Shown: positions 3,498 through 43,795 of the stretch, in pieces
Numbering within the stretch: the first letter of the stretch is position 1
How the letters are laid out: the number at the start of each line of letters is the position of its first letter
Assembly (NCBI GenBank): GCA_019359285.1
Contig: JAHHHQ010000036.1
Span: 62,001-126,000 of the forward strand
DNA length: 64,000 nucleotides
Source of the DNA: Nodosilinea sp. WJT8-NPBG4
GTDB lineage: Bacteria > Cyanobacteriota > Cyanobacteriia > Phormidesmidales > Phormidesmidaceae
Reading direction: 5' to 3'
The notes under the pieces: model-generated
The model's input: the letters and a program-made list of their open reading frames with translations, nothing else
Databases searched by the model: none
Told to the model about the DNA's origin: nothing
Translations under genes and position numbers: made by a program

Positions 3498-3799
3498 AGT
3501 TGCTGTACCTGGGTTAAAAGGAAAAAATCACAAACGGTTTGAGGAGGAAACCCACCTCGGCCTTTCTTTGGGGAGACTGACCGAGGTAGGCTGGTTCAGG
3601 CACCGAGGCAAGAGGGAATGGGGCTGCTGTTGACGGTGGACCCCATGTTCTCGCCTTTGGTCATCTCTCTCTGAACCAGTGCTGTTGCAAGGATTAGGGG
3701 TAGATGGGTAATTGGGTGGGCGGGTGGATGGGTAGGCGGGGAAGTGACTTGATTCTTGCTTTACCCTCTTACTCATCCACGCATCTACCCCTCTCCCTC

Positions 3800-19163: not shown

Positions 19164-21200
19164 CTACGTTACAGACTCAATGCGACCATTCTCTAAAAAC
19201 AGAATTTGATCGGCGCGATTGAGCACTGAGGGGCGATGGGAGACGACGAGGCAGGTGGGTGGATGGGTGGATGGGTGGGCGGGTGGATGAGTAGGCGGGT
19301 GGATGGGTAGGCAGGTGGATGGGTTTTGGGTATTAGGTGTTGGGTGCTGGGTATTGGGTTTTGCCTTACACCTTGTACCTTGCACCTGATGACGTTCAGC
19401 CTCCGCATCTTCTCTATTTCCAAACAACTGCTCCCACAGGAGTTGCTCGGTTTCGACATCGAGGGCGCTGGAGAGGTCATCGAAAACCATCAAGGCGGGC
19501 TGGCGTAGCAGCATGCGGGCGGCGGCGGCTCGTTGTTTTTGTCCACCAGAAAGGCGAAAGCCGCGAGTGCCGATCAGGGTTTCTAGTCCCTCCGGCATTT
19601 GGGCGAGATCGCGATCGAAGACGGCGGTGGCGATCGCTCGATCAAACTGTTCTGGGCCAACGGCATCTCCTAGCCCCAGCAGCAGATTCTCCCGTAGTGA
19701 GGCGCTGAAAAGTTGGGGAATCTGCGGTGTATAAGCGGCCCGAGGCGGCACCAAAAAATTTGCCGGGTCGAGAATCGGCTGACCATTCCAATACAGCGCG
19801 CCAGCCTGCTTGGGTAGCAGGCCCAACAGCACCCGCAGCAGGGTGGTTTTGCCCGCGCCCACCCGCCCGGTGATCACCGTCAAACTGCCCTGGGCGAGGG
19901 TAAAACTGATGTCGCTGATGCCGCCACCGCCTGGATAGCGGTAGGTCAACCCTTCAACCCGCAGCTCGTGAAGGGGTTCGGATGCAATAGCCGTCGCCAT
20001 CGACGGCAGCACAGGCTGTGAGCTAAGCAGGGGCTTGAGGTAGAGGGGGTGGGGGTGGGTGAGGGGGTGGATGGGTAGGCGGGTGGATGGGTCGGCGGGG
20101 GGATGGGTAGGCGGGTGGATGGGTAGGCGGGTAGGCGGGTTGGTAAATATCTGAGATTCGGTTATTTCACGGGTGCTGGTCTCGTCCACCCTCCCACCCT
20201 CCCACTCATCCACGCGCCCACCCTCCCACGCGCCCACCAACTTCCCCATGCGCTCAAAGGAAACTTCGCTCTGCTTAATGGTGGCGATAAAGCCGCCGAG
20301 GAAGGCGAGAAAGTAGGTGACAAACGATAAGTAATAGACAAACAGGGCAAAGTCGCCCACGGTGAGATCGCCTTGGGCACCGAGGCTTTGGGAAGCGACC
20401 AGCAAGATTAGCCCGGTGCCGATGCTGACGATATTCTCAAAGCCGGAGTTGAGCACAGCGGTGAAGACCTGGTCGCGCACCATCAGGTCGCGGCGGCGAT
20501 CGCACCTTTTCCGCAATTCCTCCAGCATTTGGGCCTCGGCTCCGGCCACCTTTACAGCCTGCACAGCGGTAAACAATTCGCCAATTAGCCCGGTGACTTG
20601 CTGGGTAGCCTGGCGGCTGGCGCGGCGGTAGCGTTTGAGGCGGTGTTCGGCCTGGTGGGCGAGGAGGGCGATCGCGCACAGCGGCAAAAACACCAGCAGC
20701 GTCATCGTCGGGTTGACGCTGATCAGCAGCGCCACCGACCCCACGGCAAACACTCCGGCAGCAAAGATCTCGTTGGTGCCCACCACCACATCCTCAATCT
20801 GCGCCGCATCGTCGCGAAAGTAGCTGAGAATTTCACCAGGGGAGGCATTTTGGCCATTGGCTCCACCCGTTGCCAGCTCGGCCCCAGGGCGCTTGAGCAG
20901 TTCATGCAGCAGGTTGTGTCGCACCAGACCACTGATCAAAAAGCGGTGCTGAGTTTTAGTGATCCGCCCGACAAAGATTGCCACCACCCGCGCCAGCCCC
21001 ACCGCCAGCAGTAGCCCAATCCATACCCAAGGCGAACTGCTAAAGCGAGCCTCTCCGGTGAGGGTGTCAAAAAATTCGCGAATGATCAGCCCCGGCACCG
21101 CTGGAAGGCCAAGGATGAATAGCCACAGCAGCGTATCGACCCAGTAGAGCCGCTGGGCGTAGCGGATGAGCTGCCAGAGGAGGTGGGTGATGGGGGGCAT
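19164..21200 (-). CDS. ABC exporter half-transporter (TMD+NBD) carrying two in-frame repeat-derived insertions
   Basis: Walker A GRVGAGKTT, LSGGQKQRAAAARMLL, DDLSSALD, H-loop VVSHR; insertions at about 20036-20246 (TMD-NBD linker) and 19242-19406 (inside NBD just before the H-loop strand). Confidence 0.9.
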   Translation of the reverse strand: MPPITHLLWQLIRYAQRLYWVDTLLWLFILGLPAVPGLIIREFFDTLTGEARFSSSPWVWIGLLLAVGLARVVAIFVGRITKTQHRFLISGLVRHNLLHELLKRPGAELATGGANGQNASPGEILSYFRDDAAQIEDVVVGTNEIFAAGVFAVGSVALLISVNPTMTLLVFLPLCAIALLAHQAEHRLKRYRRASRQATQQVTGLIGELFTAVQAVKVAGAEAQMLEELRKRCDRRRDLMVRDQVFTAVLNSGFENIVSIGTGLILLVASQSLGAQGDLTVGDFALFVYYLSFVTYFLAFLGGFIATIKQSEVSFERMGKLVGAWEGGRVDEWEGGRVDETSTREITESQIFTNPPTRLPIHPPTHPPADPSTRLPIHPLTHPHPLYLKPLLSSQPVLPSMATAIASEPLHELRVEGLTYRYPGGGGISDISFTLAQGSLTVITGRVGAGKTTLLRVLLGLLPKQAGALYWNGQPILDPANFLVPPRAAYTPQIPQLFSASLRENLLLGLGDAVGPEQFDRAIATAVFDRDLAQMPEGLETLIGTRGFRLSGGQKQRAAAARMLLRQPALMVFDDLSSALDVETEQLLWEQLFGNREDAEAERHQVQGTRCKAKPNTQHPTPNTQNPSTCLPIHPPTHPPAHPSTHPPTCLVVSHRPSVLNRADQILFLENGRIESVT

Positions 21201-21201
21201 A

Positions 21202-21312
21202 GGGGTGGATGGATAGGCGGGTAGCGGGTAGGTGGGTGGGAGAGTGGAAGAGTGGGAGGGTGGGGAAAGATTAAAGGAGAGGTATTGGGGGGATTTGTGG
21301 GATGGGTAGGGG
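21202..21312. repeat. G-rich arm of the dispersed repeat family, upstream of the four-helix-bundle ORF
   Basis: GGGTGGATGGATAGGCGGGTAGCGGGTAGGTGGGTGGGAGAGTGGAAGAGTGGGAGGGTGGGG...GATGGGTAGGGG. Confidence 0.85.
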
Positions 21313-21691
21313 ATTTGTGAGGAGGTATCAGGATTTAGAGGTTTATCAAGCTGCTTTTGAAGAGGCGATGCGTATTTTTGAGGTTTCTAAGACTTTTCCA
21401 GTTGAAGAGCGATACTCACTGACAGATCAGATACGTCGATCGTCCCGTTCAATTTGTGCCAATTTGGCAGAGGCATGGCGCAAACGATGCTACGAAGCGG
21501 CCTTCGTTGCCAAGTTGACAGACTGTGCGGCCGAGGCTGCTGAAACTCAAACTTGGATAGCTTTTGCCGTCCGCTGTCAGTACCTTTCGTCCGAGGTTGG
21601 ACAAGCCCTCGCCGAAGCCTACGACAAAATTTCAGGCATGCTAGTCACCATGATCCGCAACTCCCATCAATGGACAACCCCCAAACCCTAA
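21302..21691 (+). CDS. Four helix bundle protein (S23 / 23S rRNA intervening sequence family, TIGR02436-type; bAvd-like)
   Basis: YQDLEVYQAAFEEAMRIFEVSKTFPVEERYSLTDQIRRSSRSICANLAEAWRKRCYEAAFVAKL is a close match to the family. Confidence 0.93.
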   Translation: MGRGFVRRYQDLEVYQAAFEEAMRIFEVSKTFPVEERYSLTDQIRRSSRSICANLAEAWRKRCYEAAFVAKLTDCAAEAAETQTWIAFAVRCQYLSSEVGQALAEAYDKISGMLVTMIRNSHQWTTPKP

Positions 21692-21748
21692 TCACCCTCT
21701 CACCCTCCAACTCTCCCACCCTTCAACTCTCCCACTCTCCCACCTTCC
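21684..21748. repeat. C-rich arm of the repeat family, downstream of the four-helix-bundle ORF
   Basis: ACCCTAATCACCCTCTCACCCTCCAACTCTCCCACCCTTCAACTCTCCCACTCTCCCACCTTCC; inverted relative to 21202-21312 (shared GGTGGGAGAGTGG). Confidence 0.85.
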
Positions 21749-21971
21749 TCAGGAGCCTTTGCCGGATATTTTTGGCTACTCAGCGGAGTTTCTGTAGTCG
21801 GCGATCGCAGGACGAACTTGCGGAGTGCTGGGTGAAGACGGCGGAAGAATGGATGCACCACTGGCATCGGGTTCGAGATATTCAACAGCCAAAGTGCTGG
21901 ATAATACGGAAAATATAGGGTCTCATCTGGCAAATCTGACACTTAATACATAGTTTGCTGAGGTATGGGTT

Positions 21972-24235: not shown

Positions 24236-24913
24236 ATGAATTCAGAACCTAATAGTGCAGAAACAGATTCGGCTCAAGTAGTCACAGAATCTCTAAGTCA
24301 GTCTGAGAAAAACATAGCAGCAACCCCAAGCTTTCCCAATCCACTTTCCGAAGCAGAAACAGATTCGGCTCAAGTAGTCACAGAATCTCTAAGTCAGTCT
24401 GAGAAAAACATAGCAGCAACCCCAAGCTTTCCCAATCCACTTTCCGAAGCAGAAACAGATTCGGCTCAAGTAGTCACAGAATCTCTAAGCCAGTCTGAGA
24501 AAAACATAGCAGCAACCCCGAGCTTTCCCAATCCACTTTCCGAAAAAGTACCGAATACTCGTCCCGGTTATTGGGTTAAAAATTTGATTGGAAATGTTGG
24601 GGAGCCATTATACTTTTTAGCGATCTCTCTTATGGGAGAAGAACTCGCCCTTCAAGTCTGGGAAGAAGTACGGGAGATGATTGCTTATGCCCTGATTCTT
24701 CAACTACCTGATTTAATCGGTCAGTTAATCCTTAAGCAACAGTTTTCTAGCTTTAATGTATGCCAAGCTGAGGATGCGCTTGATATTAATCGTTATGCCT
24801 GCTATACCATCGTTGGATCTGACTTTTTACTTTGGATAGCTATTGCTAGTCGAATTATAGGACGTTTCTTGGCTAGTCTATTGGGGATTACTAATAGATC
24901 AAGAGGGAGTTGA
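24236..24913 (+). CDS. Hypothetical membrane protein with three tandem 32-aa repeats
   Basis: (AETDSAQVVTESLSQSEKNIAATPSFPNPLSE)x3 followed by hydrophobic segments. Confidence 0.7.
   Translation: MNSEPNSAETDSAQVVTESLSQSEKNIAATPSFPNPLSEAETDSAQVVTESLSQSEKNIAATPSFPNPLSEAETDSAQVVTESLSQSEKNIAATPSFPNPLSEKVPNTRPGYWVKNLIGNVGEPLYFLAISLMGEELALQVWEEVREMIAYALILQLPDLIGQLILKQQFSSFNVCQAEDALDINRYACYTIVGSDFLLWIAIASRIIGRFLASLLGITNRSRGS
24257..24544. repeat. Near-perfect 96-bp coding tandem repeat x3
   Basis: Unit starts at 24257, 24353 and 24449; only a few substitutions in copy 3. Confidence 0.95.
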
Positions 24914-32319: not shown

Positions 32320-32477
32320 ACCACCTGTAAATCGTTGAGGACAATGCCCTAGCTATCCATAGCTTTGAGACAATCAGGAATACTTCTCAACAAGATACAG
32401 GTCAGTGGGAACCACTAAAGCGAAGGATGATCCCTAGACGGAGTTTTTGCGATCAGATTTGGGAGTTTCTGGGAGCA

Positions 32478-32552
32478 AGTGGGAGAGTAGATGAGTGGGC
32501 AGGTGGATGGGTAGATGGGTGGATGGGTAGGCGGGTGGATGAGTGGATGGGA
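32478..32552. repeat. G-rich arm of the dispersed repeat family
   Basis: GAGAGTAGATGAGTGGGCAGGTGGATGGGTAGATGGGTGGATGGGTAGGCGGGTGGATGAGTGGATGGG; inverted partner at 32800-32872. Confidence 0.88.
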
Positions 32553-32799
32553 TACGATTCCGGGCGTTGCTTAACGCAAGTATGATTTGCCCCACCAGCC
32601 CCCATTTTTGGGGGGAGCCAGAGTCTCAAAGTCCCCCAGAATTCGGGGATTTAGGGGGCCAGGCAGAGTCTAAAGGTTTTGCCGGTTCATTCCTCGATTC
32701 AGCAATGCCCGATTCCGCTTTATGCTCTGCACCACACACCTACACGCCTAATAAATATAGGGAGATTGTCTTTCTACCCTTCACTCGTCGCACACTTCA

Positions 32800-32872
32800 C
32801 CAACCCATCCACCCATCTACCCATCTACTCATCCACCCGCCTACCCGCCTACCCACCCACCCCCTACGCCCT
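32800..32872. repeat. C-rich arm of the dispersed repeat family, reaching the stop codon of the AraC gene
   Basis: CCAACCCATCCACCCATCTACCCATCTACTCATCCACCCGCCTACCCGCCTACCCACCCACCCCCTACG. Confidence 0.88.
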
Positions 32873-42679: not shown

Positions 42680-43795
42680 TCAGGGGGTAGTTGTCTTCCC
42701 CGTCTCCGGATCAACGACCAGTTCTTCACAGTCGCGGTCTGGCTCGATGGTGATGTCTTGAGGCAGAGTGGTGATGCAAAGTTTGGCTAGGGCGAGTTGG
42801 TCTTGAGTTAAAGTTGCGCTATACAGGAAAGCTCCTGTGAGGTTGGCACCCTCCAAGTTAGCCCCTGTGAGGTTGGCGTTCCCCAGGGAAGCCCCTGTGA
42901 GGTTAGTGTTTTTCAGGTCAGCCCCTGTGAAGTTGGCGCCATACAGTTTAGCCCCTTCGAGCTTGGCGTTCTTCAGGTCAGCCCCTGTGAGGTTGGCGTT
43001 CTTCAGGATAGCCCTTCTAAGGTGGGCGCTGTCCAGGATAGCCCCTTCGAGGTTAGCGCTGTCCATGATAGCCTCTGTGAGGTTAGCGCTCTCCAGGTTA
43101 GCCCCTTTGAGGTTGGCGCCATTCAGGATAGCCTCTTGAAAATCCAAGCGGGACAGATTCACCCGTCGCAAATCTAAGCTGGACAGATTCTGCCACCTGA
43201 AGCTAATAACAGGTGCTGCTGAGAGGTCCTCTGTTTTTGATAAATCTATTGCTAATAAATTTGAAGCTTGAAGAAAATCAATAAGTTGGGTTCTTCTAGA
43301 GCGATCTAGTTCACGAAGTGCAGCAACCGTTCGCCCTCGAGCCAACACGATCGCACCCTCATTAGGTGTTTCAGCTAAAAGATTCCGTGCAAAGGTCAGC
43401 TCCTCAAGCTTGTCAAAATACGTCTTAAGAACCGCATTCTGATTGGCTTCCCTTTGGAGTCGCCCTGTAACAAAGCTAGTGGCAGCAGCTAAGACTAGAG
43501 GAAGCGCCAGTATTTTCATCAATTCTCCCAGGTGGGGCAAGAAGAATAGGAGCCACTTCGGGGCATCCCGGGCTATGAACCTAAAAACTTGCCTTGTAGA
43601 TTTGCCGTCTTCAGGGACAAGCCGTTGACTGGCAAACAGCCTCATTTTTGTTGGGCTACGGACAATTTTCTCGGCCTCTATCCAGTCACTTCGTTCATCC
43701 CCTAGTTCACCCAGCCGTAGCCGTTTGTGATAAAGCTCAAGAGCTATACGCGCGATATCCTCTTGAGGCTTCTCTGCCTTGGGTTTTCGGGGCAC
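42680..43795 (-). CDS. Pentapeptide-repeat protein with N-terminal TM region
   Basis: Runs of A(N/D)LxG(A): ANLKGANLESANLTEAIMDSANLEGAILDSAHLRRAILKNANLTGADLKNAKLEGAKLYGANFTGADL. Confidence 0.92.
   Translation of the reverse strand: MPRKPKAEKPQEDIARIALELYHKRLRLGELGDERSDWIEAEKIVRSPTKMRLFASQRLVPEDGKSTRQVFRFIARDAPKWLLFFLPHLGELMKILALPLVLAAATSFVTGRLQREANQNAVLKTYFDKLEELTFARNLLAETPNEGAIVLARGRTVAALRELDRSRRTQLIDFLQASNLLAIDLSKTEDLSAAPVISFRWQNLSSLDLRRVNLSRLDFQEAILNGANLKGANLESANLTEAIMDSANLEGAILDSAHLRRAILKNANLTGADLKNAKLEGAKLYGANFTGADLKNTNLTGASLGNANLTGANLEGANLTGAFLYSATLTQDQLALAKLCITTLPQDITIEPDRDCEELVVDPETGKTTTP

Follow-up and report, generated by a model that had tools for sequence, protein, structure and literature searches.

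Whether the S23-family gene that lies between two inverted, G-rich repeat arrays in the genome of Nodosilinea sp. WJT8-NPBG4 is a chance neighbor of these repeats, or forms an element together with them, is the question raised by this locus. The window analyzed here is the whole stretch of 64,000 nt (contig JAHHHQ010000036.1, positions 62,001 to 126,000 of the forward strand), and all coordinates refer to it. S23 proteins and rRNA intervening sequences (IVSs) have been recognized for decades, and we know of no function for them. Bacterial arrays of 7-8-nt G-rich units have also been described, and their role is open (PMC4692102). The locus comprises the following features:

19164-21200, minus strand: ABC transporter gene, bordering the element with its start codon and containing in-frame ORF-less arrays in its coding region
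21201-21264, plus strand: left G-rich arm, a degenerate octamer array (GGGTGGAT / GGGAGAGT type), its boundary set by orthologous-site comparison
21302-21691, plus strand: S23 gene in the loop that the arms enclose, encoding a four-helix-bundle protein of 129 aa (PF05635, TIGR02436, AF2 model)
21693-21748, minus strand: right C-rich arm, in inverted orientation to the left arm, with which it pairs in the RNA fold
21750-21791, no strand assigned: conserved right flank (GGAGCC..GCCGGATATTTTTGGCTACTCAGCGGAGTTTC), shared by orthologous loci with and without the S23 ORF (orthologous comparison)

The element sits between the divergent ABC transporter gene, whose start codon the left arm directly abuts, and a hypothetical gene. 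Both arms are degenerate 8-mer tandem arrays, and the sequence that the preliminary description reported as shared between them is indeed present in each, with exact copies of GGTGGGAGAGTGG at 21235-21247 (plus strand) and 21732-21744 (minus strand); when up to two mismatches are allowed, the window contains 24 matches, whereas shuffles give an expectation of 1.3. The left and right sides are linked by inverted pairs of 23-38 nt that are 82-86% complementary, and in the minimum-free-energy RNA fold the two arms pair with each other and the loop holds the ORF (-207 kcal/mol, compared with a mean of -191 and sd of 7.3 for shuffles; z -2.2). The C-rich array begins 2 nt past the S23 stop codon, as close as had been described, while the earlier placement of the ATG inside the G-rich arm holds only in part: the arm proper stops 37 nt 5' of the ATG, and the spacer is likewise G-rich.

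The ORF at 21302-21691 is a true S23-family gene, as first assigned, with profile-search scores above the curated cut-offs for both PF05635 (E = 3.1e-29; 101.7 bits vs. a cut-off of 33.8) and TIGR02436 (E = 4.2e-28; 97.7 bits vs. a cut-off of 24). Its start at the ATG at 21302 agrees with that of homologs (N-terminus M-x-R/K-G-x-V/I-R), and it is the only PF05635 gene in the Nodosilinea genome. The AF2 model of the protein (pLDDT 94.5) has the S23 structures 2gsc and 2rld as its best Foldseek hits (TM 0.7-0.9), and the protein is thus predicted to share the four-helix-bundle fold of solved S23 proteins. With 17 K+R and 16 D+E residues it is not notably basic, which counts against the hairpin-element explanation developed below. 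In relatives, pairs of S23 genes (mostly from orthologous sites) have dN/dS values of 0.03-0.32, showing that purifying selection acts on S23. As regards phage carriage, the protein has no relative among 50,697 phage records.

The Avd structure 4dwl is a weaker Foldseek match to the same model (TM 0.75-0.89), and S23 and Avd have a common fold and remote sequence similarity. Together with reports of PF05635 proteins near the reverse transcriptases (RTs) of diversity-generating retroelements (DGRs; PMC10053308), this would fit a role for S23 as a trans-acting RT partner, as Avd is in DGRs, with reverse transcription of the hairpin RNA generating or copying the arms. We regard such a role as improbable: unlike Avd and bAvd proteins, the window protein falls below the family cut-offs (25.8 bits under the bAvd profile, cut-off 40; 19.6 bits under the Avd profile, cut-off 80), and the ORFs examined at 17.4-25.8 kb include no RT.

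The arrangement seen in the window recurs at S23 genes generally. For each gene, the 250 nt upstream were aligned with the reverse complement of the 250 nt downstream, and a score of at least 15 was taken as positive. Complementary flanks were detected at 111 of 178 testable S23 genes (62%) from cyanobacteria and many other phyla: 27/41 in relatives from the genus, family and class, 40/63 in a class-wide cyanobacterial sample, 12/15 in named cyanobacteria and 32/59 in other phyla; the loci are partly orthologous and not all independent, and the effect persists in the diverse sets. The expectation that such arms are commoner around S23 than around unrelated genes is therefore borne out, since among the other ORFs of the same loci only 27 of 627 were positive (9/75, 3/68, 8/120, and 7/364 per set), as were none of 27 PIN genes and none of 26 HepT-like genes. 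When the upstream flank of one locus was paired with the downstream flank of another, positives amounted to 16%, 4%, 23%, and 3% in the four sets.

In the 85 strong cases, the upstream arm invariably has more G than C (85/85), the median arm is 40 nt, and the unit is 7 nt long in 31 (plus 6 at 14 nt) and 8 nt long in 28. The units themselves vary widely among loci (GGTGACAA, GGAGGGTA, GGGCAAAT, GGGAGTC, and GAGCGTA, among others), and the two arms of one locus agree better with each other than with the arms of different loci. The single repeat family that had initially been proposed was rejected for this reason: units differ by locus and species, while arms within a locus agree. Detectable arms are absent from approximately 38% of the 178 S23 genes in the flank test, which again counts against a hairpin element. 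In one layout exception, on a plasmid of Oscillatoria PCC 7112 (L396), G-rich arrays flank S23 as direct rather than inverted repeats. The S23 genes without detectable arms include the tandem pairs of L071-L074, which are located behind an ORF with, by eye, a Cas2-like C-terminus. A reading of three loci (L019, L020, and L070) as CRISPR operons was dropped, as the annotated neighbor is a DUF499 gene.

The site of the window element was located in 11 genomes of the genus by means of the common ABC start codon and the conserved right flank. Seven of these carry S23 (in one case broken by a MITE-like insert and in another containing stops), and the other four carry short ORF-less hairpins or arrays built from other units, in agreement with the suggestion that this locus is an ORF-carrying version with ORF-less copies elsewhere. 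The fold of the short forms is convincing relative to shuffles in some instances (z -3.2 and -5.0) and not in others (z -0.2 and +0.3), the latter counting against a hairpin element. Between G000 and G019, the left flank is 93.7% and the right flank 89% identical, whereas the S23 genes are only 66% identical (those of G021 and G019 are 96% identical), and the tree places the G000 gene together with the copy from G026 (support 100/99), apart from the other S23 genes at this site. Different S23 lineages thus occupy conserved flanks, which implies that the loop was swapped or that insertion occurred twice. At one orthologous site, the match between arms within a genome exceeds the match across genomes (permutation p = 7e-5). 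A second site presents a similar series: S23 copies in G027, G001, and G013 (the copy in G013 belonging to another lineage), ORF-less arrays of four different units in G014, G015, G003, and G010, and a near-empty junction of 16-20 nt in G016, G002, and G017, with G020 also lacking an array. One S23 subfamily is found at several chromosomal sites. No target-site duplication was established at the near-empty sites, where the low-complexity arms hide the ends of the element.

Copies also occur inside protein-coding genes. At 12 loci, the frame of the host gene runs uninterrupted across both arms and the whole of S23, on the same strand and always in the S+2 frame; six of these belong to one host family, which reduces the number of independent events. 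Open S+2 frames numbered 11, against 1.7 expected from synonymous-codon shuffling, while the four other frames were near expectation (1 vs. 0.7, 6 vs. 6.0, 1 vs. 0.2, and 4 vs. 2.5). The hosts are DNA methylases of defense systems: RM type IIG, DISARM DrmMI, type III Mod, BREX PglX, and Hma HmaB. In Gloeocapsa PCC 7428 and Tolypothrix PCC 7601, the HmaB homologs are uninterrupted, and precisely the inserted stretch is missing from them. In one intragenic copy (L166), the left arm and S23 each contain a stop, which shows decay. Some annotated defense proteins (RM, BREX, DISARM, and Hma) therefore contain S23-derived sequence read in another frame. The S23-derived linker of L163 (aa 253-374) is also matched by the PADLOC PglX profile PDLC02522. 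This suggests that insert-bearing proteins went into building the model, and the profile itself apparently contains S23-derived sequence as well. In the same L163 HmaB, an in-frame DUF559 endonuclease domain (aa 490-595) adjoins a stretch encoded by PHPLTPSPTGGEGE repeats, and is possibly a third cargo family.

These comparisons bear on a reading in which nothing is mobile, and the arms serve gene control (as terminators, RNase III sites, or G-quadruplexes) and insulate an S23 gene useful to the host. Purifying selection on S23 would be expected of such a gene, and G-rich heptamer arrays do form G-quadruplexes in vitro and are mostly transcribed in X. axonopodis (PMC4692102), but this reading accounts for neither the distinct S23 lineages within conserved flanks, nor the ORF-less and near-empty sites, nor the in-frame intragenic copies, and we consider it very unlikely.

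Arrays are far more numerous than S23 genes, and the window itself contains three further inverted pairs without an ORF:

20054-20240, no strand assigned: inverted arrays (G..C) around a ∼40-nt loop, part of the ABC transporter linker, in which they are translated in frame
3706-3795, no strand assigned: inverted array pair (G..C) with a short loop, read from the sequence
32473-32867, no strand assigned: inverted arrays (G..C) around a ∼240-nt loop that contains a MITE-like repeat

The ABC transporter linker of relatives carries other in-frame units than does the window's gene. In a 400-kb sample of the genome, skewed arrays numbered 29 with periods of 7/8 nt, 6 with 6/9 nt, and none with 10/11 nt. 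As the genome has one S23 gene and many arrays, the idea of one S23 gene per element copy was rejected. The MITE-like repeat in the ORF-less loop (32560-32790, GGCGTTGCTGA/TCAGCAACGCC-type ends) is the same that breaks S23 in G004 (L018/L191). Repeats of other kinds in the window include three 96-bp copies, 98% identical, at 24257-24544 within the ORF at 24236-24913, and a 15/30-bp array at 42816-43137 whose coding pattern appears pentapeptide-like by eye.

Nor is S23 the sole cargo, as genes of the GxxExxY family (PF13366, PD-(D/E)XK-type) occur in the same layout: in cyanobacteria (L333-L362), 13 of 21 have complementary flanks, with longer arm units (e.g., ACGCAGATGA; ∼9-10 nt by eye). These similar arms count against the hairpin-element explanation developed below. 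The class of elements may accordingly be wider than S23, and of the element/protein pair put forward in the preliminary description, the link between S23 and the arms stands and its exclusivity does not. Across 111 cyanobacterial genomes, the excess of 7/8-mer arrays correlates modestly with S23 copy number (Spearman 0.42, kinship ignored), compared with 0.0 for the 9-mer control; a 9-nt spacing was used as the control because GGG patterns read symmetrically backwards. Three genomes (G200, G212, and G131) have abundant arrays and undetectable S23, which counts against a hairpin element and led us to reject a strict dependence of arrays on S23.

The abundance of ORF-less arrays, the array-rich S23-negative genomes, the unrelated units found at one site in different species, and the presence of two unrelated protein families in the loops would all be natural if hairpins arose by themselves, through replication slippage and through template switching from one inverted copy to another at intergenic hot spots, and if S23 and GxxExxY were passengers captured at insertion-tolerant sites. 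However, PIN and HepT-like genes, which are also small and mobile, are never found in the loops (0/53), the association spans many phyla with unrelated units, and the 7/8-mer excess, unlike that of 9-mers, rises with S23 copies in the kinship-blind comparison above. We therefore hold capture of passengers to be rather unlikely, if a serious contender.

The explanation that we favor, with modest confidence, is that the locus is a copy of a small selfish hairpin element, and that S23 probably binds its own folded nucleic acid and so aids copying or maintenance. Such an element would consist of S23 in a loop flanked by a pair of inverted arms, both of them tandem arrays of 7-8-nt G-rich units, and would insert or exchange, as a selfish unit, in tight junctions between genes and in intragenic linker positions. 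S23 is the only recognizable gene in the element and no transposase is encoded; a catalytic activity encoded by the element is not known, which counts against this explanation. The transcript of the element could form a long stem that places S23 in the loop, similar to the 23S rRNA IVS; S23, as a small Avd-like four-helix bundle, would most likely bind this folded nucleic acid and help the element to be copied or maintained, and the ORF-less hairpins would be non-autonomous or decayed copies. Three parts of this account are inferred from the genomic patterns, namely movement of the entire unit, binding of the stem by S23, and spread driven by this binding. Taken together, the observations point to small elements, apparently mobile, that form an undescribed class, with the S23 layout present in many bacterial phyla.

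A broader proposal is more speculative, and we offer it tentatively: these loci could belong to a pan-bacterial class of selfish hairpins, of which rRNA IVSs would be the rRNA-borne members, with single small genes (S23, GxxExxY) in the loops of self-matching 7-10-nt arrays. Insertion inside protein genes would be tolerated via the open +2 frame of the cargo, which would serve as a disordered linker so that host and S23 are read in overlapping frames, and anti-phage methylases would be recurrent hosts. The link between S23 and G-rich arrays, in which most tested stand-alone S23 genes lie in array-hairpin loops, provides a candidate origin for both the arrays and the rRNA IVSs.

Several known systems resemble parts of this arrangement. 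G-rich heptamer arrays were described by Rehm et al. (2015) from Xanthomonas and Nostoc, mostly in intergenic positions and often as convergent inverted pairs (70-75 in Xanthomonas; PMC4692102). The window arms are likewise inverted pairs of G-rich short-unit tandem arrays, but their unit is 8 nt rather than 7 (many S23 loci elsewhere have 7-nt units), and whereas Rehm et al. name no protein partner (PMC4692102), S23 and GxxExxY genes lie between the arms here. We found no prior report linking S23 with G-rich arrays in the open-licence PMC literature. In CPR bacteria, S23-family (23S_rRNA_IVP) ORFs occur in insertion sequences of 16S and 23S rRNA genes (PMC11270868); these involve the same protein family, and their sites also hold ORF-less insertions, but unlike the window element they reside in rRNA genes. 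The closest parallel is the IVS of 23S rRNA, which in Coxiella and Leptospira encodes S23p in the loop of a stem, and has been called selfish, with its origin unclear (PMC4990558). Both have an S23 ORF in the loop of a terminal-inverted-repeat stem, at 428 nt in Coxiella (PMC4990558) and ∼550 nt in the window. The element described here differs in that its stems are 7-8-nt tandem arrays whose unit changes from locus to locus, and in that it lies between or inside protein genes, including in frame in defense methylases; a location in 23S rRNA was unsupported, as five conserved 23S motifs were unmatched in any fetched locus. A stem-loop with S23 in its loop is thus already known from the rRNA IVS, and what appears to be new is the link between S23 and the arrays.
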